The notes beneath the pieces were generated by a model. That model searched no databases. It was not told where the DNA came from and saw nothing but the letters and a program-made list of their open reading frames with translations. A DNA stretch of 53,248 nucleotides from Candidatus Peregrinibacteria bacterium (GTDB taxonomy: Bacteria > Patescibacteriota > Gracilibacteria > Peribacterales > Peribacteraceae): contig JACPXZ010000004.1 of NCBI GenBank assembly GCA_016196225.1, positions 1-53,248 of the forward strand. The letters are read 5' to 3'. Shown here piece by piece: positions 2,448 to 43,051 of the stretch (the stretch's first letter is position 1; the number at the start of each line of letters is the position of its first letter). Made by a program: the position numbers and the translations under genes.

Positions 2448-5400
2448 ATGGGATCCCCCCGCACCATTCTCCTCCTCGGATCCGGCGCACTCAAAATCGG
2501 CGAAGCGGGAGAGTTTGATTATTCCGGAAGTCAGGCGATCAAAGCATTTAAGGAAGAGGGACACAACGTCATTCTCATCAATCCCAACATCGCCACCAAC
2601 CAAACATCGTGGGGTCTTGCCGATCGCGTGTATTTTGTACCGGTCACGCCCGAGTTCACCGAGCGCGTGATCATCAAAGAAAAACCGGATAGTATCGCGC
2701 TCGGCTTTGGCGGACAAACCGCGCTCAATTGCGGTATCGCACTCGAGGAAGATCATGTTTTTCGTAAACATAACGTGGAATGTCTTGGGACGTCCGTGGA
2801 AAACATTCGGAAAACCGAAGACCGCGCCCTCTTTAATAAAGAACTCCGTTCCATCGATATCGACGTCCCGCGTTCTCGAGCCTGCACCACCATTGGAGAG
2901 GCACTACTCTCCGCACAGTCCATTGGTTTTCCCCTCATTGTCCGCGGTGCCTTCGCCCTTGGCGGCAAAGGGAGCGGCCGTGCAACAACCAAGGAAGAAT
3001 TAGAGGATCTGCTCAAGGTGGCATTTGTCGAATCCCCGCAGGTGCTCATAGAAGAAGATCTCACCGGCTGGAAAGAAGTCGAATACGAAGTCGTGCGGGA
3101 CCGCGCCGACAACTGCATCACGGTCTGCAACATGGAAAATGTCGACCCGATGGGGATCCATACCGGCGAATCGATCGTCGTCGCTCCGAGTCAAACACTC
3201 GATAATATCGAATACCATATGCTCAGATCAGTGGCACAGAAGGTCGTTCGACATTTTGAGATCGTCGGAGAATGCAACATTCAATATGCGCTCGATCCCC
3301 ACTCCCGCCGGTATCGGGTGATCGAAGTGAACGCACGACTTTCTCGCAGTTCTGCACTCGCCTCCAAAGCAACAGGTTATCCTCTTGCATTCATCGCAGC
3401 AAAACTGGCCCTCGGGCATCCTCTCCCGATGCTTCGCAATTCGATCACCAAGGTGACCTCCGCCGATTTTGAACCGGCCCTTGATTACGTTGCCGTCAAA
3501 ATCCCCCGTTGGGATTTGCAGAAATTTCGGTTTGTCTCCGAGCAGGTGACGAGCGAAATGAAATCGGTCGGCGAAGTGATGGGACTCGGACGCACATTTG
3601 AGGAGGCGCTCCAAAAGGCTGTCCGCATGTTGAACATCGGCGCCGACGGCCTGTGGCATCATCCATTCACCTTCGGGGGCGGCAAACGTGAACTCCTCTC
3701 TCCGACTCCACGGCGTCTGTTTGCAACGGCCCATGCCATCCGCGAGGGAACGGCGATTGACGACATCGCCAAAGCGACAGGCATCGACCGCTGGTTTTTA
3801 GAACGTATCCATGCGTGCGGGGAGATCGCACGGGCCATCGAACGAACGACTCCTCTCTTACCGTCTCTTCTTGCACAAGCAAAACGGGCGGGATTTTCGG
3901 ATAAAAGCATCGCTCACCTCCAAAAAAGAAAACCGGAAGAAATCCGCAAACTCCGCCACGACTGGAAGATCCTCCCACTCATCAAACAAATCGATACGTT
4001 GGCGGGGGAGTTCCCTGCTCGAACAAATTATTTATACACAACATATCATGGAACAGAGCATGATATACCCTTCCCGACTCCTGCGACAAAAGAACGTGTC
4101 ATTGTTCTTGGAGGAGGACCGTACTCCATCGGTTCGTCCGTCGAATTCGATTGGTGCTGCGTCCAGGCGGCGCACGAACTTAAAGAACAGGGTTACGACG
4201 TCATCATGATCAATTCCAACCCCGAAACCGTGAGTACGGACTACGACGAGTGTGATGTGCTCTTCTTCGAAGAGCTCACCCTCGAACGCATTCAGGATAT
4301 TGTGCAGTACACTCATCCCAAAGGAGTCCTGATCTCCATGGGCGGCCAGATCCCCAACTCCCTCGCTCTCAAACTCGCGGAACAAGGGGTCCCCATCCTC
4401 GGGACTCTCCCCGGCAACATCGATCGCGCGGAAAATCGCCATACATTCAGCTCTCTTCTCGATACCCTCAAGATCGATCAACCCCTGTGGCAAGAATTCA
4501 CCGATGTCAAAAGCGCTCAACAGTTTGCACAAAAAGTCGCCTACCCCGTCATCGTCCGGCCAAGTTATGTCCTCTCGGGGGCTGCGATGGCCGTGGTGCA
4601 TTCCAGCGATGACCTTGCGGCATATATTGGGCAAGCCGCGCTTGTCACTCCCGAGGCGCCGGTCGTTATTTCAAAATTCGAACAAGGCGCAAAAGAAATC
4701 GAAATGGACGGCGTTGCACAGGAGGGAGTCCTTGTGATCACCGCGCTCTCCGAGCACATCGAAAACGCCGGAGTGCACTCGGGCGATGCGACCATCGTTC
4801 TCCCCCCTCAGCGCGTCAATATCGAGACGATGCAGCAGATGAAACTCATCGCCAAAAACATCGTCCGGGAACTCTCTATTTCGGGACCGTTTAACATGCA
4901 ATTCCTTGCCAAGGATAATCGGGTCAAAGTCATCGAATGTAATCTCCGCGCCAGTCGGAGTTTTCCGTTCGCGAGCAAAGTCACCGGCTACAATTTTGCC
5001 CGCATTGCGCTCCAGGCGATTTTGGGAAAAGCGGACCCTCGTGAGCGGTATCAAACGCTCGATCTCAACCACATCGGCGTGAAGGCGGCCCAGTTCAGCT
5101 TTTCACGACTCAAGGGAGCCGACCCCCTTCTCGGCGTCGAGATGGCGAGCACTGGCGAAGTCGGGTGTTTTGGTATGAATGCGCAACAAGCGCTCCTCAC
5201 CGCGATGATCGCTGTCGGATTCCGCATGCCGAAAAAAAATATTCTTCTCACCATCGGTCACCTCGAAGATAAGATGGACATGCTCGATACCATCCGTACA
5301 CTTGCAAAACTTGATTTTCGACTCTATGCCACCAAAAACACCCACGACTTTCTTGCGGCGCGGGATTTGAGTTCTGTCCTGCTTTTTAAAGTCAATGAGC

Positions 5401-5636
5401 CCCGCAGTCCGAACATTCGCGAATATTTGGAAGAACGCCGCGTCGACCTTGTCATCAATATCCCCTCGGAGCGTTCAGGACAACAACAAACAGACGGATA
5501 CCTTATCCGTCGTCTGGCGATGGACCGTGGGATTCCTCTGATCACCAACGTTCAACTCGCCAAGCGTCTCGTGGAGGCCATCGCCCAGGAACCCCTCGAT
5601 TCTCTCCCCCTCCTCCCCTGGCCGAATCTCTTGTAA
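2448..5636 (+). CDS. carB: Carbamoyl-phosphate synthase large subunit
   Basis: A 1062-aa enzyme that makes carbamoyl phosphate from bicarbonate, ammonia and two ATP, the first step of pyrimidine and arginine synthesis. Order of parts: first ATP-grasp half (about 1-390; LLLGSGALKIGEAGEFDYSG), linker/oligomerisation region (390-540), second ATP-grasp half (540-930; VLGGGPYSIGSSVEFDWC), and a C-terminal MGS-type regulatory domain (930-1062; KKNILLTIG, then DLVINIPSERSG). Length matches the family (E. coli about 1073). The wording of many motifs (NPNIATNQTSWGLADRVYF, TGWKEVEYEVVRDRADNC, VNARLSRSSALASKATGYPL) is that of eukaryotic CPS/CAD and Bacteroidetes-type enzymes rather than E. coli CarB. 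The ATG at 2448 was preferred over 2427 because MGSPRTILLLGSG starts the domain directly. No carA (glutaminase subunit) is in the window. Confidence 0.95.
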   Translation: MGSPRTILLLGSGALKIGEAGEFDYSGSQAIKAFKEEGHNVILINPNIATNQTSWGLADRVYFVPVTPEFTERVIIKEKPDSIALGFGGQTALNCGIALEEDHVFRKHNVECLGTSVENIRKTEDRALFNKELRSIDIDVPRSRACTTIGEALLSAQSIGFPLIVRGAFALGGKGSGRATTKEELEDLLKVAFVESPQVLIEEDLTGWKEVEYEVVRDRADNCITVCNMENVDPMGIHTGESIVVAPSQTLDNIEYHMLRSVAQKVVRHFEIVGECNIQYALDPHSRRYRVIEVNARLSRSSALASKATGYPLAFIAAKLALGHPLPMLRNSITKVTSADFEPALDYVAVKIPRWDLQKFRFVSEQVTSEMKSVGEVMGLGRTFEEALQKAVRMLNIGADGLWHHPFTFGGGKRELLSPTPRRLFATAHAIREGTAIDDIAKATGIDRWFLERIHACGEIARAIERTTPLLPSLLAQAKRAGFSDKSIAHLQKRKPEEIRKLRHDWKILPLIKQIDTLAGEFPARTNYLYTTYHGTEHDIPFPTPATKERVIVLGGGPYSIGSSVEFDWCCVQAAHELKEQGYDVIMINSNPETVSTDYDECDVLFFEELTLERIQDIVQYTHPKGVLISMGGQIPNSLALKLAEQGVPILGTLPGNIDRAENRHTFSSLLDTLKIDQPLWQEFTDVKSAQQFAQKVAYPVIVRPSYVLSGAAMAVVHSSDDLAAYIGQAALVTPEAPVVISKFEQGAKEIEMDGVAQEGVLVITALSEHIENAGVHSGDATIVLPPQRVNIETMQQMKLIAKNIVRELSISGPFNMQFLAKDNRVKVIECNLRASRSFPFASKVTGYNFARIALQAILGKADPRERYQTLDLNHIGVKAAQFSFSRLKGADPLLGVEMASTGEVGCFGMNAQQALLTAMIAVGFRMPKKNILLTIGHLEDKMDMLDTIRTLAKLDFRLYATKNTHDFLAARDLSSVLLFKVNEPRSPNIREYLEERRVDLVINIPSERSGQQQTDGYLIRRLAMDRGIPLITNVQLAKRLVEAIAQEPLDSLPLLPWPNLL

Positions 5637-5642
5637 TTTGGC

Positions 5643-5671
5643 TTGCCTCCTGCTCACCCTGTCCCTACACT
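5643..5671 (+). promoter_or_regulatory. greA promoter
   Basis: -35 TTGCCT (5643-5648), exact 17-nt spacer, -10 TACACT (5666-5671), then 13 nt to the greA ATG. It begins 7 nt after the carB stop, so greA can be transcribed independently, with a leader of only about six bases. This promoter also argues against an upstream start at 5643. Confidence 0.65.
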
Positions 5672-5684
5672 TCCCCTACTCACT

Positions 5685-6245
5685 ATGTCTGATGATGATT
5701 TTCTCATCGATGAGGATCTTGCGGAGGCCTCTGCCGCATCCGGAGGGAGCGGAGCAAGCGATGACGACGAAGAGCTGACGCTCCTCACCCGCGAGGGGTT
5801 AAAAAAGCTGAAAGAAGAATTGGACGAGCTGAAAAATGTCCGCCGCAAGGAGGTTGCCCAGCGTCTCAAAGAAGCGATTTCATACGGTGATCTCTCCGAG
5901 AACTCCGAATACGAGGAAGCAAAAAACGAACAGGCATTTCTTGAAGGCCGGGTCCTCGAACTGGAGCGTAAAATTAAAAATGCAAAGATTATCACCGAGC
6001 GCCGCAGTGAAAAACGGGGGAAAGAAATCACCGTCGGTTCCACAGTCACCTTCCGTAATCGAACCAAACAATCCGATGAAGAGTCGTTCACCATCGTTGG
6101 CGCCACCGAAGCGGATCCTTTCGATGCGAAGATCAGCAACGAATCTCCCATTGGAAAGGCTCTCCTTTCTCATTGTTCAGGTGAGACGATCAACATCGAC
6201 ACTCCCGCGGGACTCATGCGATACGAAATCCTTAAGGTACAATAG
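5685..6245 (+). CDS. greA: Transcription elongation factor GreA with acidic N-terminal extension
   Basis: A 186-aa protein that enters the RNA polymerase secondary channel and stimulates cleavage of backtracked RNA. After an acidic extension of about 34 residues (MSDDDFLIDEDLAEAS... SDDDEELT) comes the usual GreA coiled coil (LLTREGLKKLKEELDELK; DLSENSEYEEAKNEQAFLEGR, which carries the acidic tip residues) and the C-terminal FKBP-like domain (SPIGKALLSHCSGETINI). The canonical protein has about 158 residues, so the extension is the odd part. The start at 5685 is chosen because the frame upstream overlaps the promoter. The stop is followed after 5 nt by a small coiled-coil gene. Confidence 0.93.
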   Translation: MSDDDFLIDEDLAEASAASGGSGASDDDEELTLLTREGLKKLKEELDELKNVRRKEVAQRLKEAISYGDLSENSEYEEAKNEQAFLEGRVLELERKIKNAKIITERRSEKRGKEITVGSTVTFRNRTKQSDEESFTIVGATEADPFDAKISNESPIGKALLSHCSGETINIDTPAGLMRYEILKVQ

Positions 6246-6250
6246 CGGGT

Positions 6251-6634
6251 ATGACCGACCCCACATTGATTATTCCGGACGATATCAAAAAAAAACACTC
6301 CGCATTGATCCCCCTTATTGTGCGATCCGAGAGTATGAATGGGGAAGAAAAACAATACTGGATCAACATCCTCCCCGTGATGACCCCGGAACAAATCGAA
6401 AAATTAACCAAGATCCTCCAAGATGAACGACGACAACTCGATCTGATCGATGCGAAATATGCAAAAAAAATCGAGACCATCGGCCAGGAAGAATTTATCA
6501 AAAAGGTCGAGGAAGAACATCGTTCCCGACGTCAGGAGCGAAGCCTTGCGGAACGAGCAGCCGAAACCGAAGAACACCATACTGAGGAGGACATTCTCCA
6601 GAATATCAAGAACGATCAGGATCAACCGCGATGA
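6251..6634 (+). CDS. Small charged helical protein, function unknown
   Basis: A 127-aa protein with no domain I recognise. It is strongly charged and almost wholly predicted helical, with a likely coiled coil in the second half (QIEKLTKILQDERRQLDLID, then EEFIKKVEEEHRSRRQERSL). It lacks a signal peptide and membrane segments, so it should be cytosolic. Start: a -10-like TACAAT (6238-6243, overlapping the greA stop) ends 7 nt before the ATG, so it may have its own leaderless transcript besides greA read-through. Its last 13 bp overlap the end of holA on the other strand. Proteins of this kind occur in Patescibacteria; a link to transcription through greA is only positional. Confidence 0.7.
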   Translation: MTDPTLIIPDDIKKKHSALIPLIVRSESMNGEEKQYWINILPVMTPEQIEKLTKILQDERRQLDLIDAKYAKKIETIGQEEFIKKVEEEHRSRRQERSLAERAAETEEHHTEEDILQNIKNDQDQPR

Positions 6635-7593
6635 ACAGATGATATCGCTAGCACACACTGATCAATCAACGCATGAAGTTCCGTCGAATCGTCCGCAGTC
6701 GCACGTAAAGAGCCTGTTTTGAGCGCATGATCCATTTCGACAATCCGATCGATAAGGAGCCGCATATCGCGAAGGCGTATGTGGCAGGCAAGAGGAAGCA
6801 AAGATCGAACAGCCAACGGATGAATACCATGCGCATCCGCAATATCCTGCGCATGTTTGCATCCTTCCTTTACCGCAGCCGTTACTACGGTGAGCTCACG
6901 CAGCATTTTGAGAAGCATGTTCCAAAGCGCAAAAGGATCTTGTCCCCCGGCAATGAGTTTTTGCGCGTACGCAAGAGCGGAGGCCGTATCCCCACGAACC
7001 ACGATATCGGTCAGTTGCCATATGACCCACTCACGGGATGGCACGACGACGCGATCGATGTCACTGACGGTAATTTCTTTTCGGCCAAGGATAAGTTTTT
7101 GTATCTCTTGATAAAGCATATCCTGATCCGTTCCGATATAGTCAAGAAGTCGAACTTTTGCATCACGCAGAATGCTCACGCCTCCAGATCGCACAACGTC
7201 GTCGATCCATACATGAAGACGAGGTCCTTTAAGAATAGAAAATGTTTGACACTGGGCATGTTTAAGAAGAACCCGTGCCGCCCCGCTGCGCCGATCGATT
7301 TTTGGACTTATAAACAAGACAATCACTTGAGGATGAATATGGAAAAGAAGATTTTCCATTTCTTCGGTTGTCCATCGGGGTATCCCTTCGATAATCACAA
7401 GACGCGCCGCTGCAATAAACGGCGCAACCGAAACCTCATCCAAAAGCTCACGGGATATCAAATGTCCTCCCTCAAGAGATCGAAAATTCTCCATATTGTG
7501 CTTCTCAATAAAACACGTCACCCACTTCCGTCGCTCTTCGCGAATGGCAAAGATATTCTCCCCGCTAAACAGAAACACATGATGAGGCGCCAT
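6622..7593 (-). CDS. holA: DNA polymerase III delta subunit
   Basis: A 323-aa clamp-loader subunit that opens the sliding clamp during replication. The N-terminal part resembles the family start (HHVFLFSGENIFAIREERRKW), then comes an AAA-like core without a canonical P-loop, as expected for delta (VIIEGIPRW; VIVLFISPKIDRRS), the lid segment with GTDQDMLYQEIQKLILG, and a helical collar domain containing WQLTDIVVRGDTASALAYAQ and DPFALWNMLLKMLREL. Length fits the family (about 330-345). The start is placed at the ATG at 7593 rather than 7599 because a -10 TAGGAT (7602-7607) lies 8 nt before it but only 2 nt before the earlier ATG. It converges on and overlaps the preceding gene by 13 bp. Confidence 0.88.
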   Translation of the reverse strand: MAPHHVFLFSGENIFAIREERRKWVTCFIEKHNMENFRSLEGGHLISRELLDEVSVAPFIAAARLVIIEGIPRWTTEEMENLLFHIHPQVIVLFISPKIDRRSGAARVLLKHAQCQTFSILKGPRLHVWIDDVVRSGGVSILRDAKVRLLDYIGTDQDMLYQEIQKLILGRKEITVSDIDRVVVPSREWVIWQLTDIVVRGDTASALAYAQKLIAGGQDPFALWNMLLKMLRELTVVTAAVKEGCKHAQDIADAHGIHPLAVRSLLPLACHIRLRDMRLLIDRIVEMDHALKTGSLRATADDSTELHALIDQCVLAISSVHRG

Positions 7594-7681
7594 CACCATG
7601 TATCCTAGAACACTCCATCCGGTTTAAGCCACTATATGGGATAACGCAACATATAAAGATACAAAGTCAACTTTTCTCCCA

Positions 7682-7710
7682 TTGAGAAAACAACGGTTTT
7701 TCTCTATAAT
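7682..7710 (+). promoter_or_regulatory. Strong promoter of the dockerin operon
   Basis: -35 TTGAGA (7682-7687), 17-nt spacer, perfect -10 TATAAT (7705-7710), then only 8 nt (aagaagaa) to the ATG at 7719. This is the best sigma70 match in the window and implies a leaderless mRNA for the first gene of the surface operon. Confidence 0.8.
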
Positions 7711-7718
7711 AAGAAGAA

Positions 7719-8045
7719 ATGAAAACTAACTTCCTTGCTCACTTCCCCCGCCGTACCGTAAGCATCCTGACATTGGGTATGCTCTGCGTCGTTGGATCGT
7801 TTGCGGTGGGTATACGGACGGCAGGTGATGTCCGCACAATCAGTCCGCTCTCCGCCGAAACGCTCGAACTCCCGGGAGATATCGACGACAACGGGAAAAT
7901 CGACTATGTCGATGTCATCCGAATCCTGGAAATAGCTCAAGGATACCGCGAACCGACCCCAAGAGAACTACATGCAGATCCAAATGGAGACGGCGTTTTA
8001 ACGGTTGATGATGCGATCGCGCTCCTCCACGAACTCCGCCTCTGA
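7719..8045 (+). CDS. Secreted dockerin-domain protein
   Basis: A 108-aa protein: signal peptide or N-terminal anchor (residues 1-32, core VSILTLGMLCVVGSFAVG), short linker, then a complete type I dockerin. The two calcium-binding F-hand repeats are GDIDDNGKIDYVDVIRIL (about 53-70) and ADPNGDGVLTVDDAIALL (about 86-103), each with the D-x-D/N-x-D/N-G pattern and the following helix. Dockerins bind cohesin modules non-covalently to build extracellular assemblies. Here the dockerin is essentially the whole mature protein, with no catalytic module, so it may act as an adaptor. The next gene, 11 bp on, encodes a cohesin-like domain on a membrane anchor, so the pair may bind each other; that pairing is inferred. 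Confidence 0.85.
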   Translation: MKTNFLAHFPRRTVSILTLGMLCVVGSFAVGIRTAGDVRTISPLSAETLELPGDIDDNGKIDYVDVIRILEIAQGYREPTPRELHADPNGDGVLTVDDAIALLHELRL

Positions 8046-8056
8046 TCCCTCCACCC

Positions 8057-9304
8057 ATGGCCTCCCGTGATCTTACGCAATGGCTCATCAGAGGAGGGTT
8101 GATCCTCACCGTCTATATAAGCATCGTCCCGCGCAGCGCTCTTGCCGCCCCCGAAGGGGCACGTTTGATTCTCCGTCCTCATTGCGAGGAATCATCGGGA
8201 GAATCCGAGAGTTCAGAGTGTCCGCTGTTTTCCATTCGCAATCCTCTCACACGAGAGACGCCAATATTCAAAAAAGATGATCTTCTGGATATGGATCTCG
8301 TTCTCATTCAGGATAACGGCCTTCCCATCAACCGCATTCGCACATGGCTCGCCTACGATCCGAATATTCTCGACGGTGATCTCCTCGAAACCAATACGGA
8401 TTTTCCTGACACGGCACCGGGAGAGCATGACTTCGCCCCATCGGAGGGATATATCAAGATCGATATCAGTGTGTCGGGCACAAACGAAAAACAAGATACG
8501 GAAATCATCCTTGCGCGTATCCGCATGCGCGTACGGCAAAGCACCGTTCCATCCACACCCATCAGTTTTTATGATGTAGCTCAAGGAACGGATGGACATA
8601 CGATGGTGATCAGTGGTGAGGGAACAGATGCGCGCAATATCCTCTTCCCGGAACTCGGTTCCCTCCTGGTCCGAATGGAAAACGCTCAATCTTCATCGTC
8701 CCCTACGGTTGCCGACCATCCGCCGATACCACCGATTGCAAAGCAGACAAACATCTCCCCTCCGCAACCGACCGTTCTCCCGAAAACTCTTCCGACCGCT
8801 GCGCGGCCGAATCCTCCTACGCCTGTAACTCCCTTCACCCTTCTCCAAATACAAAATATCGGTGTCACCACCGAAGAAGTCAATATCTTCCTTGGGTGGG
8901 ATCCTCTCTCCACGCCCGATCTTATCGGATACAACGTGTACTACGCATCACGATCCGGAGAATATATCCACAAGCGCAGTCTCGATGCGACGGCGACCAG
9001 CACCACCGTCCGCGATCTTCCGATCGGAGTAAAATACTTTTTTGCCATTCGGGGTGTCAACCGGGCCCAGCAGGAAAGCGCATTTAGTAAAGAAGTCGCC
9101 GTGACTACCGGTAATCCTGCGTCGTCCACCGCACCGCTTGCTGCCAGTATGATCCCTCGTACCCCTCCCGCTCTTCGTACGCCGTTGCACAGCACAACGG
9201 TTCCCGGTCAAACAGGAATCTCATCGTGGCTTGGAGCCATGATGATCGGTGTTGCCCTGATCGGAACGATTCTCGCTATCCGCAAACAATTACTCCTGTC
9301 GTAA
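8057..9304 (+). CDS. Membrane-anchored cohesin-like and fibronectin type III protein
   Basis: A 415-aa surface protein. A signal peptide (1-31, ending ALAAP) precedes a domain of about 180 residues with the layout of cohesin-like beta sandwiches (DLLDMDLVLIQDNGLPINRI, AYDPNILDGDLLE, EIILARIRMRV). A Pro-rich linker (about 218-258) leads to a fibronectin type III domain (about 262-350; NIFLGWDPLSTPDLIGYNVYY, GVKYFFAIRGVN). The end is a transmembrane helix (SWLGAMMIGVALIGTILAIR) and a short basic tail, so the body faces outside. The cohesin assignment rests on fold-like pattern and on the dockerin gene next door and is less certain than the FN3 domain. The following gene starts 1 nt after the stop, so both are co-translated from the promoter at 7682. 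Confidence 0.75.
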   Translation: MASRDLTQWLIRGGLILTVYISIVPRSALAAPEGARLILRPHCEESSGESESSECPLFSIRNPLTRETPIFKKDDLLDMDLVLIQDNGLPINRIRTWLAYDPNILDGDLLETNTDFPDTAPGEHDFAPSEGYIKIDISVSGTNEKQDTEIILARIRMRVRQSTVPSTPISFYDVAQGTDGHTMVISGEGTDARNILFPELGSLLVRMENAQSSSSPTVADHPPIPPIAKQTNISPPQPTVLPKTLPTAARPNPPTPVTPFTLLQIQNIGVTTEEVNIFLGWDPLSTPDLIGYNVYYASRSGEYIHKRSLDATATSTTVRDLPIGVKYFFAIRGVNRAQQESAFSKEVAVTTGNPASSTAPLAASMIPRTPPALRTPLHSTTVPGQTGISSWLGAMMIGVALIGTILAIRKQLLLS

Positions 9305-9305
9305 G

Positions 9306-10139
9306 ATGGTTGCCTCTCTCCATCCGCATTGGCACAGCACCGATACCGAAGAAGTTTCTGTCCCGGTGCATGCATCAAAAACCCATACAGAGCCCGTTCG
9401 CCGATATGCCGTCCGCCATCCGGCAGCAATCGTCGGTGTCATGCTGGTACTCGGACTCGGAATGGTATTTGTACGTGGCGTTCAGGAATTGCGGGGACAA
9501 GCAGGTGGTTCTCCGGTCATTATTCGTATCACTCCTGCCGGACTGGAACCCCAGGATGTGTCTCTCTCCCCCGGACAAACGATCACGTGGCGTAACGAAC
9601 AGGATGCCCCCCATATCCTCACATCCGACGCACTTCCGGTCGAGGGAGGAATACTCTCGACTCCCCATATTCTCCCCGGCACTGACTTCAGCGCGCGTAT
9701 CGCGCCGGATGCTGAGCCTGGCAACTTCACCTATGTCTCTCTTACAGCAGAAAACATTACCGGAACGGTGACGATCGCGGCTCCTGCGCCCACTCCTCTG
9801 CCCTCCTCCATCGCCGCTCCAGTCTCCGCCGGACCCTCACGACCCATCGCCGCTCCAGTCTCCGCCGGACCCTCACGACCCATCGCGCCATTGGCATCGA
9901 TCCCGCGGAATCCCTACGCTCTGGAAGGAACGCCCATTCCTCCATCTCCCGCTCTATCCCCGCAGATCCCTCCGCTCCCGCCCTCCTCCAGAGGGACGCC
10001 TCTCCCCCCCCTTGCTGCAAGCGTTCGCCCCTTCACTCAACCCCAAACGGGTCCGCGCGGCATGGGCGCCGCATTGATCATCAGTATGATTCTCGTCGTG
10101 GGCCTCTGCGTCCGTCTCACACGAAAAGGACACTCTTGA
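9306..10139 (+). CDS. Membrane-anchored cupredoxin-like protein with Pro-rich stalk
   Basis: A 277-aa protein. A cytosolic N-terminus of about 40 residues (HPHWHSTDTEEVSVPVHASK) is followed by a membrane segment (PAAIVGVMLVLGLGMVFV), a plastocyanin-like beta sandwich at about 72-155 (VSLSPGQTITWRNEQDAPHIL, PGNFTYVSLTAENITGTVTI), a Pro/Ala/Ser stalk and a second membrane helix near the C-terminus (GAALIISMILVVGLCV). One His of the copper site is present (APHIL) but the usual Cys and Met ligands after FTY are not, so copper binding is doubtful. The stalk holds a perfect 12-residue duplication (IAAPVSAGPSRP). It belongs to the dockerin operon. Function unknown; electron transfer is unlikely given the missing ligands. 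Confidence 0.7.
   Translation: MVASLHPHWHSTDTEEVSVPVHASKTHTEPVRRYAVRHPAAIVGVMLVLGLGMVFVRGVQELRGQAGGSPVIIRITPAGLEPQDVSLSPGQTITWRNEQDAPHILTSDALPVEGGILSTPHILPGTDFSARIAPDAEPGNFTYVSLTAENITGTVTIAAPAPTPLPSSIAAPVSAGPSRPIAAPVSAGPSRPIAPLASIPRNPYALEGTPIPPSPALSPQIPPLPPSSRGTPLPPLAASVRPFTQPQTGPRGMGAALIISMILVVGLCVRLTRKGHS
9810..9881 (+). repeat. Perfect 36-bp tandem duplication in the cupredoxin-like gene
   Basis: Two identical 36-nt units, 9810-9845 and 9846-9881, encode IAAPVSAGPSRP twice, and a third partial unit (atcgcg) follows. The identity at third codon positions indicates a very recent duplication of the stalk, probably by replication slippage. Confidence 0.9.
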
Positions 10140-10172
10140 TCGTCGATATCAAAGGAGTAGCATCCGATCTCC

Positions 10173-10436
10173 ATGAGTTCTTTAATGATCCTTCGTAGGG
10201 CATTGGAGCAAGAGAGTACCCTGCAGGATCGTATCCCTTGTAACGAGAGAATCGTTGTTGTCTTTGACGAACCTGCACGTCTCCTCGCAAGGCGCCTCGC
10301 TCAGAGAATGAACCACCTTATGCGACAGGGCAAAACATGTTTAGATACCGAGCATCAAATACTTGACGAATTTCGATACGAAATCCTGATGTGCGGGATC
10401 CGACTGCTTCAAGATACTCTCGTCCTTAGAGAGTAA
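10173..10436 (+). CDS. Small protein of the surface operon, function unknown
   Basis: An 87-aa protein that I do not recognise. It is predicted to be mostly helical, rich in Arg and Leu, without signal peptide or membrane segment (MSSLMILRRALEQESTLQDR; ERIVVVFDEPARLLARRLAQ). It lies 33 bp after the cupredoxin-like gene and 3 bp before an alternative start of the DUF5667 gene, on the same strand, so it is probably co-transcribed. An AAGGAG at about 10151 lies too far upstream (16 nt) to be a normal ribosome site for this ATG. It is the least supported member of the operon; its tight fit between neighbours is the main argument that it is real. Confidence 0.5.
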   Translation: MSSLMILRRALEQESTLQDRIPCNERIVVVFDEPARLLARRLAQRMNHLMRQGKTCLDTEHQILDEFRYEILMCGIRLLQDTLVLRE

Positions 10437-10535
10437 AAAATGAAGTTAAGTTTACTTGTCTCTCTCGGGACGGGACCCCTTGCATATTCGGCCTATATTC
10501 TGTCACGATACGCGTACCTGTTCCCCTCTCTTTCT

Positions 10536-12812
10536 ATGAGACCTGTTCATCGTATTGTCTGTGTTATTTTTTCTCTGTGTCTCCCCGGATTCGTCGCCGC
10601 ACAAGAAAACAGCGATGTCGAGGTATCCCTTGATGCAGAAGCACAACTGGAGGCAGCCCTCCCCGAACTCCCCGATCCGGGCATTACTCCGGATAGCCCC
10701 TTCTTTATCGTTGAACAACTCATCGAAACCATCGGTGATACCCTCACGTTCAATGCGGAAGCAAAGGCCAAACGACAGGGCGAGAGGGCACTTGAGCGTA
10801 TTGCAGAGGTGAAAGCGATGTTGGCTGAGAGCGGAGTATCACCCCGCGGGCTCTCGGTCGCCCTCCAGAAGATCGAAGACCACGCAAGCAAAGCGGCATC
10901 GAATGCAAAAGACCCTTCTCTTGCCAAGAAAATCGATAGCACTCTTGAGGTCCAAAATGTCCTCCTGAAAAAAATAATCGACGAAAAAAAACGCCAACTT
11001 CATGCAGAAAACAAAGAACGAAAGCACGCTCTCCATCGTCAATTGATGGAAAAACTGCTCACGCGAGCGGACGATGAAGCACAAAATCTTGAAAATGAAC
11101 TTTCTGAAACCGATACCCAGACCGAAGCCTTCGAAATACTCCTCGACGAGGCTTTGAATTCTACAGAGAACGCGCTCCAAGAACAGGAAAAAGTCCTCGA
11201 GCAATCATTGGATGAAACGGACCGACAACGTGAAGAATTTGAGCACAATGTTCGCGCGGCAATGAAGGAAAGAAAAAAAGTTCTCCACATGCACCTCAAA
11301 GAGCTCCGCACTGCACTCAACAAGAAAGAACATGCCCTCAAAGAACAACTCAAAGAGGCAATCGAACTTGGGGAAGATGAAGAGATTGAACATCTCACGG
11401 CAGAATTCTCGGCTTCGGTCCAAACGGACGCAGCACTCCAAGCGGATGTACAAGTGGCTGATACGCTTGTCACCGGAGGCGAGGCAGACGTCGAAGTCTT
11501 TCTCCTCCAAAACACCGAAACGGATCTCGCAAAACTTATGGAGCACGAACGATCCTTTCTCGACCAAGTTTCCCAAGGGGCCGACCTCGTCTTTAAGGTA
11601 AAAAGGAAAGCTCATGAACTCCGTCTTGATGCCGAGGAAAAGGCATTAAACCTCAAGGGGAAAAAATTGGGACATGAGATTGTGAAACGACGCCAAGAAT
11701 GTTTGGATATGAACGTCCAAAATCTTGGTCAATGTATTGCAGAACGTGCACGAGCACTCCAAACCGATTTGGAACAGGTTGCGTTGGAAGAAAAAGTGGT
11801 CGCAGAAGAGCAGGAAAATCTTTCCGAGGAATCCAACGCGGAAGAACGACAGTTCGACGAATCCCTCATGATGCGAAAACGTGCCCTTGAGACCTTCCAA
11901 TCCTTAAAAAATTCCCCGGAACGTCTCCTCGATGCCTCCCAAAAATTCTCCGAGAGGGCCAGCGAAGCAGAGCAGCAATGGCAAGAGAAAAGAGAGTTAC
12001 TCAAGGAAGAGCGACGGACCAATGAGGAAGGTATTCGTGAACGCATGAAGGAAGGTAAAGAAGCCATTCGGACGGAATGGAAGGAATTCCTCAAGACCGA
12101 TTTTGATCCGAAAGAACTGAAGATGATGCAGGAGGAACGTCGTATGGAACAAAAAGATCTTCTGGAGGGTGCCAAAGAAGAACGGACGGAGGTTCGGGAA
12201 GAATTCAAAGAGGGCATGGGGGAGATAAAGGAGGAACGTAAGATGATGAAGGAAGAGATGAAAGAAGAACGCCCAATGATGAAGGAAGAAATAAGAGAAG
12301 AACGCCCAATGATGAAGGACAAAGACAGCGAGGAGCGTTCCGAAAAGCAGCGGATGAAGGAAGAAGAAATGCGGATGTTCATCGAAAAGCGCGATCAACT
12401 CCTTAAGGAGGAGCGGAAAGAAATGGATAAGCCGACAGAAACCTCGTACCCACCGGAGAACAGAGGTGAAGATATGCCAGTGAAACAGTTAATCCCTCGT
12501 TATCCTTCACGAGATATACCCGACCGGCGTCCCGAGGAAACCCGGTACAAGGATCCTCCTCCGACCGATCGCCCCTCCGATGAAAAATCGGCCTCCCCTT
12601 CGCGCCCCACGGACGAAAAACCCCCTCCTCCAAAGCGCCCAGCGGACGAAAAACCCCCTCCTCCGAGACGGGATGAGGGTCAGAGTGGCGAAACGAATAT
12701 TGAGGGACGCGGAGAGGTCAAAGGAGACGTCCAAAGTGACAATGACGGACCCCGCGGCGGTGTGCAGTTTGAATTTGAGGAAAAATGGGAAACGACCGGC
12801 GATAGCTACTAG
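10536..12812 (+). CDS. Secreted DUF5667 protein with a very long coiled coil
   Basis: A 758-aa exported protein. From the ATG at 10536 it opens with a clean signal peptide (MRPVHRIVCVIFSLCLPGFVAAQ); the frame extends to an ATG at 10440, 3 nt after the previous stop, which cannot be excluded. Residues about 40-110 match DUF5667, with the family signature PDSPFFIVEQLIETI and a helix that begins TFNAEAKAKRQGERALERIAE. Then follow about 500 residues of nearly unbroken charged helix with Glu/Lys/Arg heptads, increasingly repetitive near 12230-12330 (EERPMMKEE repeats), and a Pro-rich tail of repeats such as DEKPPPP (12590-12670). No membrane anchor is seen. It looks like a rod or tether outside the membrane, last gene of the dockerin operon. 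Function unknown. Confidence 0.8.
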   Translation: MRPVHRIVCVIFSLCLPGFVAAQENSDVEVSLDAEAQLEAALPELPDPGITPDSPFFIVEQLIETIGDTLTFNAEAKAKRQGERALERIAEVKAMLAESGVSPRGLSVALQKIEDHASKAASNAKDPSLAKKIDSTLEVQNVLLKKIIDEKKRQLHAENKERKHALHRQLMEKLLTRADDEAQNLENELSETDTQTEAFEILLDEALNSTENALQEQEKVLEQSLDETDRQREEFEHNVRAAMKERKKVLHMHLKELRTALNKKEHALKEQLKEAIELGEDEEIEHLTAEFSASVQTDAALQADVQVADTLVTGGEADVEVFLLQNTETDLAKLMEHERSFLDQVSQGADLVFKVKRKAHELRLDAEEKALNLKGKKLGHEIVKRRQECLDMNVQNLGQCIAERARALQTDLEQVALEEKVVAEEQENLSEESNAEERQFDESLMMRKRALETFQSLKNSPERLLDASQKFSERASEAEQQWQEKRELLKEERRTNEEGIRERMKEGKEAIRTEWKEFLKTDFDPKELKMMQEERRMEQKDLLEGAKEERTEVREEFKEGMGEIKEERKMMKEEMKEERPMMKEEIREERPMMKDKDSEERSEKQRMKEEEMRMFIEKRDQLLKEERKEMDKPTETSYPPENRGEDMPVKQLIPRYPSRDIPDRRPEETRYKDPPPTDRPSDEKSASPSRPTDEKPPPPKRPADEKPPPPRRDEGQSGETNIEGRGEVKGDVQSDNDGPRGGVQFEFEEKWETTGDSY
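12230..12670 (+). repeat. Internal codon-level repeats in the coiled-coil gene
   Basis: Near-identical units gaagaacgcccaatgatgaa occur at about 12267 and 12298, giving EERPMMK twice. Further on, gacgaaaaaccccctcctcc is repeated at about 12611 and 12647, giving DEKPPPP twice. Both point to slippage-driven length change in the rod and the tail. Confidence 0.75.
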
Positions 12813-12833
12813 CCCCTTCTACAACGATCATCG

Positions 12834-13712
12834 TTAGCAGGGTCTGCTGTTTCGTAAAAATGCTGTGACTAACCGCGTGGCCTGGAGGAGATTTTCTACC
12901 CGCACGTGTGCCGGAACGTCCGTGTTGCTATGCGCAATGCCTCCAAAATTTCTTGGATGGCAATGCCGACCTTTCAATCGTCGCCACTGATTCATATCGA
13001 GACTACAAAGCTGAGTGGCAGGAATCCCCTTCTTCGCAAATGGCACATGGTCCGCAAAAGAAAGACAATGATCCCCTCGATACAGTGGTACTCCAATTCT
13101 TTCAGCAATTCTTCCCAACTTTGCATTAATTTCATCGTCACTAACGATATCGTGACCATGATCGACTAAAAAAAGATCCGGTGCTGACCCCAGACACTCC
13201 AGATCGATCATCTGTGCAATACGCTGCCGGAGAGATATTGACGAAAAAGAATCGGCATAATGTTTGGCTCCAAGTAGTCCTCGTTCCTCCAAATCGAACG
13301 ATGCGAATGCAACGGGTAAACCCGACTCTTTGATCTGTCGTGCGGTCTCGACCATGACGGATAACGCAGAGGCATTATCGTCTGCCCCCTGTCCCGCACA
13401 ATAATCATGATGCGCCACAATCCACGTCTCATGGTCACACTCTTCCCCTTCCCGAAAAATCACATTGCAACAAGGACGCTTGTAATAAGACCAAGGATAG
13501 ACATCACCGGTATATCCCATCTCTTCAAACTTTGAAAGCAGCACCTCCATCCGTGCACGGGATGCAGCGAGATACTCGTTGAGCTTCCCCGAGAGAGAAT
13601 AGGGGTAATACTTTTCCGCATCAAAAAATGGTGACACCCCACAGATGTCCTCAACATGTTGTCTAAGCAGCAATGGATCCGCGAGCTTTTCGTTTTCAGG
13701 AGCGATGGACAT
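12834..13712 (-). CDS. M28-family metallopeptidase (cytosolic aminopeptidase-like)
   Basis: A 292-aa zinc peptidase of the M28 (aminopeptidase Y / glutaminyl cyclase-like) family. The metal site is readable: the His of WIVAHHD (about 98-104), the Asp of GADDNASA, the Glu pair of FDLEERGLLGAKHY (general base and ligand), the Asp of MIDLECLG, and a late His in the NFGGIAHSNTD segment. No signal peptide is present, unusual for M28, so action on cytosolic peptides is likely. Substrate cannot be inferred. A -10-like CATAAT (13719-13724) ends 6 nt before the ATG, supporting the start and a leaderless transcript. Downstream it faces the end of the DUF5667 gene across 21 bp. Confidence 0.85.
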   Translation of the reverse strand: MSIAPENEKLADPLLLRQHVEDICGVSPFFDAEKYYPYSLSGKLNEYLAASRARMEVLLSKFEEMGYTGDVYPWSYYKRPCCNVIFREGEECDHETWIVAHHDYCAGQGADDNASALSVMVETARQIKESGLPVAFASFDLEERGLLGAKHYADSFSSISLRQRIAQMIDLECLGSAPDLFLVDHGHDIVSDDEINAKLGRIAERIGVPLYRGDHCLSFADHVPFAKKGIPATQLCSLDMNQWRRLKGRHCHPRNFGGIAHSNTDVPAHVRVENLLQATRLVTAFLRNSRPC

Positions 13713-13858
13713 AGAAAAATTATGATATCAGCAGGCGTTGACTTTCCAAGACCTCTCGAGATAATAATCCCCTGCTTTTTTGTTGCTCCGTTGCCTCTAC
13801 ACGAAAAGACATAATAATAAAAAGATTTTCCAAAGCGCAAAAATATTTTTATCACCAC

Positions 13859-13890
13859 TATACATCAATTAATTGATTAATTGATATGTA
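13859..13890. repeat. AT-rich palindrome, copy 1
   Basis: A 32-bp near-palindrome whose left 15 bases TATACATCAATTAAT are identical to those of copy 2 at 14017-14048, starting 158 bp later. The right arm differs only in the last bases (gatatgta instead of gatgtata). The 400-bp gap 13713-14112 holds these two copies and the tRNA-Tyr promoter, but no gene I can support. Confidence 0.8.
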
Positions 13891-14016
13891 ATGATTATTA
13901 TCTTATTGGTGTGGGGAAATTAGACTTTCGGAATCTCTCAAAGAATGATCTCCAACCCACCATGAAAGGAAAAATACAAACCGCAATATTTGTCTCCTAA
14001 ACAATACTAAACGTCT

Positions 14017-14048
14017 TATACATCAATTAATTGATTAATTGATGTATA
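14017..14048. repeat. AT-rich palindrome, copy 2 (perfect)
   Basis: Perfect inverted repeat: arms TATACATCAATTAAT and ATTAATTGATGTATA around a 2-nt centre (TG). It lies 25 bp upstream of the tRNA-Tyr -35 box. Possible roles are an operator pair for a dimeric regulator, ends of a small mobile element, or an attachment site beside the tRNA; the sequence does not decide. Confidence 0.85.
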
Positions 14049-14072
14049 CGTTCATATTGTACAGAACCATCG

Positions 14073-14101
14073 TTGATATGCATTTCTTGCAAGTGTGATA
14101 A
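14073..14101 (+). promoter_or_regulatory. tRNA-Tyr promoter
   Basis: -35 TTGATA (14073-14078), 17-nt spacer, -10 TGATAA (14096-14101), 11 nt before the first base of the tRNA. Confidence 0.55.
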
Positions 14102-14112
14102 GATGACCCTGT

Positions 14113-14197
14113 GGGTCGGTACCGAAGTGGTCAAACGGGCCTGACTGTAAATCAGGTGGCTTCGCCTTCGGGGGTTCGAATCCCTCCCGGCCCACCA
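14113..14197 (+). tRNA. tRNA-Tyr (anticodon GTA)
   Basis: A class II tRNA with a long variable arm. Acceptor stem GGGTCGG pairs with CCGGCCC, the anticodon arm is CTGAC-TGTAAAT-CAG with anticodon GTA, a variable stem-loop follows (GGCTTCGCC region), and the T arm is GGGGG-TTCGAAT-CCCTC. Discriminator A and an encoded CCA complete the 3' end. Confidence 0.95.
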
Positions 14198-14271
14198 CTA
14201 TTTTTGAGGGAAACCTTTCCTTCGGCTCCACTCAGGACAAGATCATTTCCTCAATCCCCCTTTCCCCTCAA

Positions 14272-15690
14272 ATGAAGAACAATGCGATCTTGGCTACTCT
14301 CGGAGGAATGGTGGGTATCCTCTCGATGACATTGTACGGTGGTGGCGGCACGACTGCCTCTCCTCTCCTTGCATCAGTAGACACTATAACCATTTGCCAC
14401 GTCCCCAATAACAAAACAATGGATCTCCCGTTACCTGCCCTTGAGGGACATATGAGCCACGGTGATTATCTTGGGACCTGCACAGACGTGACACCGGAGG
14501 AGCCCGTCACGCCACGTATAGATACTGCCCAGCCATCAGCAAATACGCCGGGAGTTCATCGCGGACGCGGCCTCGGCGAACATGCCGCCGTCATACACCG
14601 TGTATTCCAAACGTATGGTCTCCATGAGAATGCCCCTTATCAATACACCTTCCATCATGAAAACATTCGTCCGACTGCCTTTGTGTCAGCAACCACATCA
14701 GCAGAGTGGACACTCAAATTGCACGCCGCCTGCTGCAGCATGTTCCGCTATCTCGAGAGACTCCACACCGTCCGTCCTTCACTCCATCCCGGCTACGTCG
14801 ACTGGATTACCGGACAGGTGGCAACGGCCGTCGGAGAAGATCCCACTCTGATCAAAGCCGCACTCCTCGGATTCGCCCATACTCATCCGAGCGCGAGCGG
14901 ATTCATCCGCAGTATCACCGAAGAAGGATGTGCGGCAAACCCCTATGTCTCTGGCGGCGACGCTACAAAACTTACCCGTGAACAACTCAAAAAAGGCGCA
15001 TTCCGCAAACCGGATGAACATCTTCACGCCACTTCTGGCGTTCCTTCCCCATTCACAATTCAACCCCATAATGAAACCGGTGCAGAGATTGCATTTACCA
15101 TTATGGATGGTGAACAAGTATTCACCGACTATGGCATCAACCACACCAAAGAACTTCATCTCCTCGTGGTCCGTGATGACGTACGGCATTTTAGTCATAT
15201 CCATCCTACACGTGACACGGCTGGAATATGGCATGTGCCCTTCATTCCCGAAGCCAATGGAACCTACTGGATCTATGCCGACTTTGTCGAGAAGGACGGT
15301 AAGCCCCATACCATCCGGTTTGAACGGACGTACGACGGGGATACCGGTCCTTACGGCATCCTCAAAACAACCACGAAGACAAAAAAACTCGGAGAACTCT
15401 TTGTCACACTTACCGTAGAACCGTATCAAGAAGGAGCACTTTTTACCTACCACATACGAGATGCGTACGGGAACACTCCGGAATTACAGCCATATCTCGG
15501 CGCCATGGGACATGGGATCCTCCTCTCATCTGAGGGAGATTTGGTCCATACGCACCCATCCCTCGCCGGAGATACCCTCGTCTTCCACATCCCTATTCCA
15601 ACAAAGGATTTCTACCGTATCTTTACCCAGTTTCAAATCGCCGATGAAGTACAGACCGTAGAATTCGACTGGCAACCTACTCCTGAATAA
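14272..15690 (+). CDS. Secreted His-rich protein with YtkA-like/metal-associated beta domains
   Basis: A 472-aa exported protein. After an N-terminal hydrophobic segment (ILATLGGMVGILSMTLYGGG) comes the short motif TITICHVPNN...GHMSHGDYLGTC (about 39-70), a Cys/His module often found near the N-terminus of secreted proteins. A middle region contains HAACCSMFRYLERLH and GFAHTHPSASG. The C-terminal half has two beta domains recalling those beside copper-handling proteins: ELHLLVVRDDVRHFSHIHPT with GTYWIYADFV, and YLGAMGHGILL with LVHTHPS and FYRIFTQFQ. The regular H-x-H-P motifs suggest metal binding, but function is unknown. It overlaps the end of the ABC transporter by 14 bp on the other strand. 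No SD is present. Confidence 0.72.
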   Translation: MKNNAILATLGGMVGILSMTLYGGGGTTASPLLASVDTITICHVPNNKTMDLPLPALEGHMSHGDYLGTCTDVTPEEPVTPRIDTAQPSANTPGVHRGRGLGEHAAVIHRVFQTYGLHENAPYQYTFHHENIRPTAFVSATTSAEWTLKLHAACCSMFRYLERLHTVRPSLHPGYVDWITGQVATAVGEDPTLIKAALLGFAHTHPSASGFIRSITEEGCAANPYVSGGDATKLTREQLKKGAFRKPDEHLHATSGVPSPFTIQPHNETGAEIAFTIMDGEQVFTDYGINHTKELHLLVVRDDVRHFSHIHPTRDTAGIWHVPFIPEANGTYWIYADFVEKDGKPHTIRFERTYDGDTGPYGILKTTTKTKKLGELFVTLTVEPYQEGALFTYHIRDAYGNTPELQPYLGAMGHGILLSSEGDLVHTHPSLAGDTLVFHIPIPTKDFYRIFTQFQIADEVQTVEFDWQPTPE

Positions 15691-40408: not shown

Positions 40409-40419
40409 AAAATCCATAA

Positions 40420-41689: not shown

Positions 41690-43051
41690 TTATAGTGCCT
41701 GCCATCCCTCTCCTCTCACCCGTCGATATACCGCAAGGGTGTAATCGCGCTGCAACGAACGCAGAGTTGCCGGTCCCACATATCCCGCCGCAGGATCCGA
41801 TGCATCCTTCACTAATTTTTTATCCATTTGATACTGCAACACCGATGTATTGGTCAGCGGCCCAAAAACGCTGTTGATTTCTTTTTCTGGGAAATATCCT
41901 TGACGCGCTAAAATCATCTGGAGTAAACGCACGTGATCACCCGTATCTCCCATCCCTAAAAAGGATTCCAATCGTTCTCCCTTCTTGGTGAGATATTTCC
42001 GTACATCATTCACCAATAAAAACTTTTCTGCACGCTCCCGGGTCTTTACCCGATCCCATTCGGCAAGGAGTTCTTTGCGCGTTAGGGGCCCAATTTGCCC
42101 CGCCCCCGGACTGTCCGGTCCACCAGCCAAACGATATTTTTGCTGCGCGTTTAAGATCGCCGTACCGAGCATATCGGAATACAGACCATCCGTTCGTCCC
42201 TTATAGTACCCTAAAAATCGGAGTGTCCGCTGTGCAAGTTGAATCTTAGACGGGGCGCTCTCCGCACTCACAAATGGGATAGGACCATCATTGATGCGAC
42301 GTGCAAGGAGGTAGGCTGCTGTACGTTCAGTGAGATGATCTAACGGTTCTTTGATATGAAAATCCCGCACAAATCCGGCAAGTGCGCTTCTCGTCACCGT
42401 ACTAAAGTACCCCGTAACCGGATGCGAAAAATATCCTGCCTTCCGTAAAAATTCCTGAAGCAACATAACGGTATATCCCCGATCTCCCACCTTTGGATTC
42501 ATACCCAGTAAATCGAAATCAAGCGTCGAATAGATCTTGAGTTTTTCGATATCAAGAGGGAGATTCTCCAATACCACCGAAACATTCGGCTGCGAGGAAC
42601 CGATCGGAAAGACCCGCCCCCGCATACGGACTTCTCCCAGTGCCAATGCCCGAGCAAGTCCCTCTTCTCCATGCCCCACCCAAATATCCAACCGATGCGT
42701 CCCATCCTTTTGTTCATTGATTGCCCCGCCACGGTCATGAACTTTTACCGTTCCAATGCCGGGTAAATGAATCACTGTTCCAAAAGGATAACTAGATGGA
42801 GCCGCCGCCATCCCCGCATAGACCGATGTGCCATCGGCTGCCCGTACTCCCTCTCCATTCAACACACGATCACGGCGCACCCCCCCTTTTACATAGCAAC
42901 ACTGATCGGGAAGAGCGGAATAATATGCGGTAATCACAAAATCCTGATCAAACGGCTCACTGGGGATCGTACTTCGCCCTTCCAATGGAACTGCAGCCGC
43001 AATGAATGCGATAATCGCAAGAATATGGCGAGGGATTTTTTTTGTTTTCAT
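41690..43051 (-). CDS. Secreted 3D-domain protein with peptidoglycan-binding repeats
   Basis: A 453-aa exported wall protein: signal peptide (IPRHILAIIAFIAAAVPLEG), a 3D (Asp-Asp-Asp, MltA/RpfB-like) barrel at about 38-150 with FVITAYYSA, YPFGTVIHLPGIGTVKVHDRGGAI and HRLDIWVGHGEEGLARALALG, which supply the Asp residues of a transglycosylase-like site. Then come two or three PG_binding_1-like modules (GDRGYTVMLLQEFLRKAGYF; TQRTLRFLGYYKGRTDGLY; GDHVRLLQMILARQGYFP). It would cut or remodel peptidoglycan. The start ATG at 43051 lies 11 nt after TGCTATAAT (43063-43071). Confidence 0.85.
   Translation of the reverse strand: MKTKKIPRHILAIIAFIAAAVPLEGRSTIPSEPFDQDFVITAYYSALPDQCCYVKGGVRRDRVLNGEGVRAADGTSVYAGMAAAPSSYPFGTVIHLPGIGTVKVHDRGGAINEQKDGTHRLDIWVGHGEEGLARALALGEVRMRGRVFPIGSSQPNVSVVLENLPLDIEKLKIYSTLDFDLLGMNPKVGDRGYTVMLLQEFLRKAGYFSHPVTGYFSTVTRSALAGFVRDFHIKEPLDHLTERTAAYLLARRINDGPIPFVSAESAPSKIQLAQRTLRFLGYYKGRTDGLYSDMLGTAILNAQQKYRLAGGPDSPGAGQIGPLTRKELLAEWDRVKTRERAEKFLLVNDVRKYLTKKGERLESFLGMGDTGDHVRLLQMILARQGYFPEKEINSVFGPLTNTSVLQYQMDKKLVKDASDPAAGYVGPATLRSLQRDYTLAVYRRVRGEGWQAL

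Follow-up and report, generated by a model that had tools for sequence, protein, structure and literature searches.

A single dockerin–cohesin gene pair in Peribacteria and its possible role as a structural fastener of the cell envelope

Cellulosomes are the best-known setting of cohesin and dockerin modules, and the same source places archaeal cohesins and dockerins (Archaeoglobus fulgidus and the anaerobic methanotrophic archaea, ANME) in organisms that are not thought to degrade cellulose, suggesting for ANME a role in outer-layer attachment (available text of PMC9012536). A cohesin followed by an FN3 domain also occurs, outside any cellulosome, in Clostridium perfringens glycosidases (2w1n and 2ozn, named as such by their entry titles), and a giant open reading frame (ORF) with non-cellulosomal dockerins has been reported from Omnitrophota, a small-celled lineage, where it belongs to the proposed adhesins (available text of PMC10066038). 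Here we analyse a locus from a Candidatus Peregrinibacteria bacterium of the family Peribacteraceae (assembly GCA_016196225.1, 1.09 Mb in 38 contigs), which lies in a 53,248-nucleotide stretch of contig JACPXZ010000004.1, referred to below as the window, and in which adjoining genes encode a minimal dockerin (A), a cohesin–FN3 protein (B) and a predicted cupredoxin-fold protein (C). By fold, the A–B pair belongs with the known cohesin–dockerin locks, and it is no cellulosome. On balance, we favour the view that A docks into B as a dedicated one-to-one, calcium-dependent structural fastener of the envelope rather than as part of an enzyme scaffold.

Compared to the cellulosomal type I pairs (2ccl, 1ohz and 4uyp), A and B show the same folds but occur in one copy each, with an N-terminal helix on the dockerin, no dockerin cargo and no multi-cohesin scaffoldin. 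The C. perfringens modules are built into glycosidases, whereas we found no catalytic domain here and B ends in a membrane helix. The ANME proteins vary between species, some of them carrying up to five cohesins (available text of PMC9012536), in contrast to the one conserved pair in fixed order seen here; the Omnitrophota ORF resembles a second, Peregrinibacteria-type arrangement described below, but no cohesin partner is mentioned for it in the available text (PMC10066038), whereas here cohesins adjoin. We found no description of a cohesin–dockerin system in Peribacteria or Peregrinibacteria in the open-licence PMC literature. The available text of the Peribacteria genome paper (PMC4736985) mentions sortase A and nowhere dockerin or cohesin, and the phylum names are absent from the text of PMC11557425.

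Domains and folds of A, B and C

The sequence-only reading of this locus had proposed that A is a minimal dockerin, and this was borne out by the calcium loops, by the Pfam matches of homologues and by comparison of the model with solved dockerins. In calcium loop 1, D54 is conserved in 32/32 sequences, D65 in 31/32 and G59 in 30/32; in loop 2, D87 and D98 are each conserved in 32/32, T95 in 31/32 and D91 in 30/32. Gene A itself scores 18.4 bits against Dockerin_1 (PF00404), below the Pfam cut-off of 22.9, and 21 of its 32 homologues match this model at E≤0.01 (best 6.6e-9). Solved dockerins are among the PDB entries matched by the family profile, whose top rows also hold other EF-hand proteins. 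The AlphaFold model, built from 26 sequences with a mean predicted local distance difference test score (pLDDT) of 79.5, has a helix at residues 11-36, is of low confidence at about 31-50 and then forms a domain of three helices, which superposes on the Clostridium thermocellum dockerin 2ccl_B with Z 10.4 and a root-mean-square deviation (rmsd) of 1.2 Å over 59 residues. Foldseek E-values for the model reach 0.011 at best, and the dockerin of 2ozn is among the weaker matches. In A, a hydrophobic helix at the N-terminus precedes a minimal dockerin that resembles type I. Residues 28-46, which span the last part of the hydrophobic stretch and the positions following it, have a mean top-residue share of 0.62, compared to 0.61 and 0.66 for the EF-hand stretches and 0.38 for the signal peptide region of B, and this conservation at EF-hand level suggests that the N-terminus of A holds a functional membrane-proximal segment, more than a throw-away signal.

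For B, the Pfam Cohesin model (PF00963) gives no match to the window protein and finds nothing in its genome at E≤0.001, but 21 of 25 B homologues match it at E≤0.1 (best 5.6e-11). In the AlphaFold model (mean pLDDT 83), residues 34-209 superpose on the cohesin 4uyq_A (VIA-align Z 14.5, rmsd 2.4 Å over 136 residues), and the best Foldseek match is the cohesin–FN3 pair 2w1n (2.2e-12). What had been described as an anchored cohesin-like/FN3 protein does model as a cohesin, and B consists of a cohesin, an FN3 domain above its Pfam cut-off and a C-terminal membrane helix (Table 1). The FN3 domain is the most conserved part of the protein, with a mean top-residue share of 0.66.

C on its own has no relevant Pfam match; 18 of its 25 homologues match Cupredoxin_1, and the family profile matches plastocyanin at 1e-8. 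At the position of the plastocyanin copper Cys, the alignment has Ser in 22/25 sequences and Cys in 0/25, with the aligned His retained in 16/25. Judged from this alignment, C is a predicted cupredoxin fold without the copper Cys. The earlier description of C as a cupredoxin-like anchored protein stands as to its family and its membrane helices and fails at the copper Cys; by this criterion we rejected C as a blue-copper electron carrier.

B and C both end in an xTG motif (PGQTG in B, QPQTG in C) followed by a membrane helix and Arg/Lys residues, and a Gly before the last helix is invariant in 25/25 rows of B (G387) and 25/25 rows of C. These counts come from alignments, on which we relied instead of an automatic C-terminal motif finder (32/33 for B, 29/33 for C) that sometimes took a nearby TG or SG. 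Among the 172 ORFs of at least 80 aa in the window, a tail of xTG or SG, helix and K/R is found only in B, in C and in one short ORF (24480-24755). A sortase is present in all 40 genomes searched, including the window's own, where it lies at a contig edge (contig C2, 3111-4331). Among 23 family relatives, the sortase gene is on the contig of the cassette in 16 and on another contig in the other 7; the 16 are orthologues with 45-57% identity to that of the window genome, lying upstream beyond greA and, in 15/16 cases, on the cassette strand, although we give this linkage little weight because the whole stretch is syntenic. We infer that a sortase acts on B and C.

Copy number and gene order

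The named relatives that share this gene set belong to Candidatus Peribacteria or are further metagenome-assembled genomes filed under Peregrinibacteria. A dockerin profile found matches in 34 of 36 genomes of the family, with exactly one match in 32 of those, and in all 34 the dockerin directly precedes B; the two genomes without a match are G018 and G034, of which G034 is 66% complete. A search for further dockerins, which the sequence-only reading had called for, returned A as the sole match in the window's genome. The B profile returned B and two FN3-only matches within one 805-aa frame, leaving one cohesin in this genome. Both counts rest on alignment profiles, the Pfam models alone being too insensitive (Dockerin_1 finds nothing in the genome at E≤0.001); the B profile was made from an 8-row alignment, the 25-row B alignment being too diverse, and a search of the genome contigs with the single B protein gave nothing. 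The FN3-bearing 805-aa frame lies on the minus strand of contig C33, with its matches at about 39790-40353, and similar frames of about 700-900 aa in most family relatives make it possibly a further conserved surface protein.

Gene order in relatives, which the sequence-only reading had proposed to compare, is conserved, with divergent holA, A and B being kept. Across 32 family loci with flanks, holA adjoins in 32/32, A precedes B in 31/32 and C follows B in 32/32 (C is cut by the contig end in L031). In the one locus that differs, L059, the promoter leads straight into B with no A between them; in G006 and G032, A and B adjoin by coordinates. In a sample of 286 genomes across the phylum, searched at a threshold of 1e-8 that misses remote forms, we found full-length or split B in the 13 family genomes that the sample contained, and outside the family mostly FN3 matches together with three short cohesin-side matches.

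A second arrangement and the competing explanations

In more distant relatives among the Peregrinibacteria/Patescibacteria, B and C are preceded by a second cohesin gene, encoding about 180-240 aa with a lipoprotein-like start. This gene is present in 11/11 named records (L105-L114 and L118), and in 8 of them a dockerin-ending protein is encoded on the same strand upstream of the two cohesin genes; the other three (L105, L106 and L111) offer about 4 kb or less of locus upstream of B. Five of eight loci of the same class (L063, L065, L066, L068 and L069 among L063-L070) also have the second cohesin. Of three dockerin-ending proteins compared with Pfam, those of L114 and L108 match Dockerin_1 at 5e-11 and 1.6e-7, and that of L107 matches a bacterial Ig-like domain and no Pfam dockerin model. 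Neighbouring giant proteins carry Ig-like domains, and one in L066 ends in a Dockerin_1 match above the cut-off (2.1e-6). Dockerins cluster with cohesins in both arrangements: the second has them on large proteins, that of the window on a minimal carrier. B and C come to both from a common ancestor, and the two do not count as independent cases. Because a cohesin–FN3 protein stands here beside a lipoprotein-like cohesin and dockerin-ending Ig-like giants, the system in its older role probably kept large surface proteins attached to the cell. TGA codons interrupt gene B of L068 (5404-6522), which stays open only under code 25, where TGA encodes an amino acid; the L068 genome appears to recode TGA, in contrast to that of the window.

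In the fastener that we favour, A, B and C would make up a single unit of the peribacterial envelope. B would be exported and then retained at the surface through its C-terminal helix, or else linked to the wall by a sortase acting at xTG, presenting its single cohesin on an FN3 stalk, and A would hold its single calcium-loaded dockerin near the membrane by way of the N-terminal helix. The dockerin would plug into the cohesin in a 1:1, calcium-dependent manner, tying membrane-proximal A to surface-anchored B, and C would be a second double-anchored stalk beside B. We consider doubtful, and offer only tentatively, a bolder form of this model in which the pair is a calcium-switched rivet: membrane-embedded A would lock sortase-anchored B and so fasten the cytoplasmic membrane either to the wall or to the surface layer, as family-wide core equipment descended from a surface holder of giant Ig-like proteins in related Patescibacteria.

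Several observations weigh against a dedicated fastener. The T-A-G in A is a candidate signal-peptidase site, at which A might be cut and then released by secretion. Nor is the pair exclusive in every genome: G011 has two and G024 three dockerin-like matches. One family lineage (G018/L059/L084 and L081) keeps B and C without A, C being seen there for L059, which indicates that B has a role or partner apart from the dockerin of A. The A–B order lies inside a conserved core neighbourhood, carB-greA-holA, and synteny alone is accordingly weak evidence of function. When 29 cohesin sequences from the A-bearing side were compared with 2 from A-less genomes, no contact residue could be separated from lineage, in a set of 29 whose possession of A was not checked row by row. 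The canonical sortase motif is LPXTG, which the tails of B and C do not show, the window's motifs having no LP.

If A is exported and released, the pair could instead recruit a small soluble calcium protein to B, itself an adhesin for a host or partner cell. The adhesin-like modules of B, with FN3 the best conserved, would suit such a role, as would a cleavable signal on A and the at best semi-independent life of Peribacteria (available text of PMC4736985), but we judge it unlikely: the N-terminal region of A is conserved like a functional segment, and presence in nearly all family genomes is better suited to a component of the envelope than to a host-specific adhesin, for which variation is to be expected. 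The persistence of B without A in one lineage and the failure of the Pfam model to recognise window B are also what would be seen if the B cohesin no longer bound a dockerin, A being a stand-alone calcium-binding or calcium-sensing membrane protein and the two genes neighbours by inheritance only. This seems to us distinctly improbable, since A is structurally a full dockerin and no generic EF hand, most B homologues are recognised by the Cohesin model, and dockerin-ending proteins and cohesins cluster again in the other arrangement.

The association of these modules with cellulosomes raises the further idea of an enzyme-docking cellulosome in vestigial or minimal form, which is scarcely credible here. 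With a single dockerin and a single cohesin, the genome can build no cellulosome: there is neither a multi-cohesin scaffoldin nor a set of dockerin enzymes, and the dockerin sits on a 108-aa protein without cargo. The same count, obtained with no search aimed at cellulases, lends support to the earlier suggestion of a structural rather than a cellulosomal role. A single five-gene surface system with the products of two further genes, D and the rod-like E, is very unlikely. All five ORFs lie in line on the plus strand downstream of the divergent holA, with short gaps and no predicted plus-strand terminator between C and E. However, D has no match at E≤0.01 in 39 relatives, E has no full-length homologue in the same 39, and the genes downstream of C vary between relatives. 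We therefore rejected D and E as conserved members of the unit, and the proposed five-gene scaffold shrinks to three conserved genes: the small protein and the DUF5667 rod are present as ORFs in line, with E matching DUF5667 (PF18915) at 3e-11 and 44 bits against a cut-off of 27, but neither is conserved with A-C. D and E may still be co-transcribed with A-C.

Promoter, neighbouring genes and significance

Table 1. Features of the locus, in window coordinates.
Feature	Position	Strand	Description
holA	6622-7599	-	divergent neighbour upstream of A
Promoter TTGAGA-17-TATAAT	7682-7710	+	sigma-70-type; -10 ends 8 nt before ATG of A
Gene A (108 aa)	7719-8045	+	hydrophobic helix 11-36, juxtamembrane segment 28-46, dockerin 50-108
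Dockerin calcium loop 1 (D54-D65)	7878-7913	+	conserved acidic ligands
Dockerin calcium loop 2 (D87-D98)	7977-8012	+	conserved acidic ligands
Gene B (415 aa)	8057-9304	+	signal peptide, cohesin, Pro/Ser-rich linker, FN3, xTG, membrane helix, basic tail
Cohesin domain of B (33-210)	8153-8686	+	structural match to 4uyq_A; homologues match PF00963
FN3 domain of B (257-353)	8825-9115	+	Pfam fn3 7.7e-6, above cut-off; structural matches at 258-353
Sorting-signal-like C terminus of B	9203-9301	+	PGQTG, membrane helix 390-414, basic residues (alignment; helix in model)
Gene C	9306-10139	+	N-terminal W motif HPHWHSTD, membrane helix, cupredoxin-fold region at about 70-159, Pro-rich linker, QPQTGP, membrane helix, R/K
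Gene D (87 aa)	10173-10436	+	in line physically, not conserved
Gene E	10536-12812	+	secreted, charged, rod-like, DUF5667; in line physically, not conserved with A-C

The promoter ahead of A matches 11/12 consensus bases and ranks first of 11 candidates found within 5000-15000, where shuffling gives an expectation of 7.4. Its -10 box lies exactly 8 nt upstream of the A start codon in 26/32 family sequences and 6-10 nt upstream in 32/32 (with the start codon of L048 reassigned), and because of this spacing the A transcript is probably leaderless or nearly so. A near-leaderless start is not peculiar to A, as a -10-like box stands 6-11 nt before the start in 8/34 window genes examined. In L059, where A is lost, the TATAAT of the same promoter lies 8 nt before the start codon of B. 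A GTCAA stretch upstream of the promoter (7665-7675) recurs in most relatives, and its minus-strand reading, TTGAC, is possibly the -35 element of a divergent holA promoter.

None of A, B, C and E was assigned to an NCBIfam family. The 758-aa version of E with a signal peptide, starting at 10536, is contained in a 790-aa ORF that starts at 10440. Beside greA, the window encodes a 127-aa protein (6251-6634) with 41-58% identity in most family loci and no Pfam family above the cut-off. Elsewhere in the window are a 472-aa protein without a Pfam or NCBIfam match (14272-15690), an 873-aa protein with a VirD4/TraD-like coupling-protein ATPase domain (37796-40417), and a protein in which three stretches are of the peptidoglycan-binding type and a 3D domain is weakly matched (41690-43051).

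What is known of cohesin–dockerin locks comes mainly from cellulosomes, which hold them in many copies and vary fast; here a single private pair keeps a fixed place in 34/36 genomes of a family of tiny, uncultured bacteria. The A–B pair would be a minimal natural system in which to study how such a lock functions outside cellulose degradation, it offers a concrete handle on how Patescibacteria construct their cell surface, and it is a possible source of an orthogonal binding module. The second arrangement suggests a testable evolutionary path from the holding of giant proteins to a minimal fastener. If the rivet model is true, the cohesin–dockerin lock would be used in general cell-envelope architecture.

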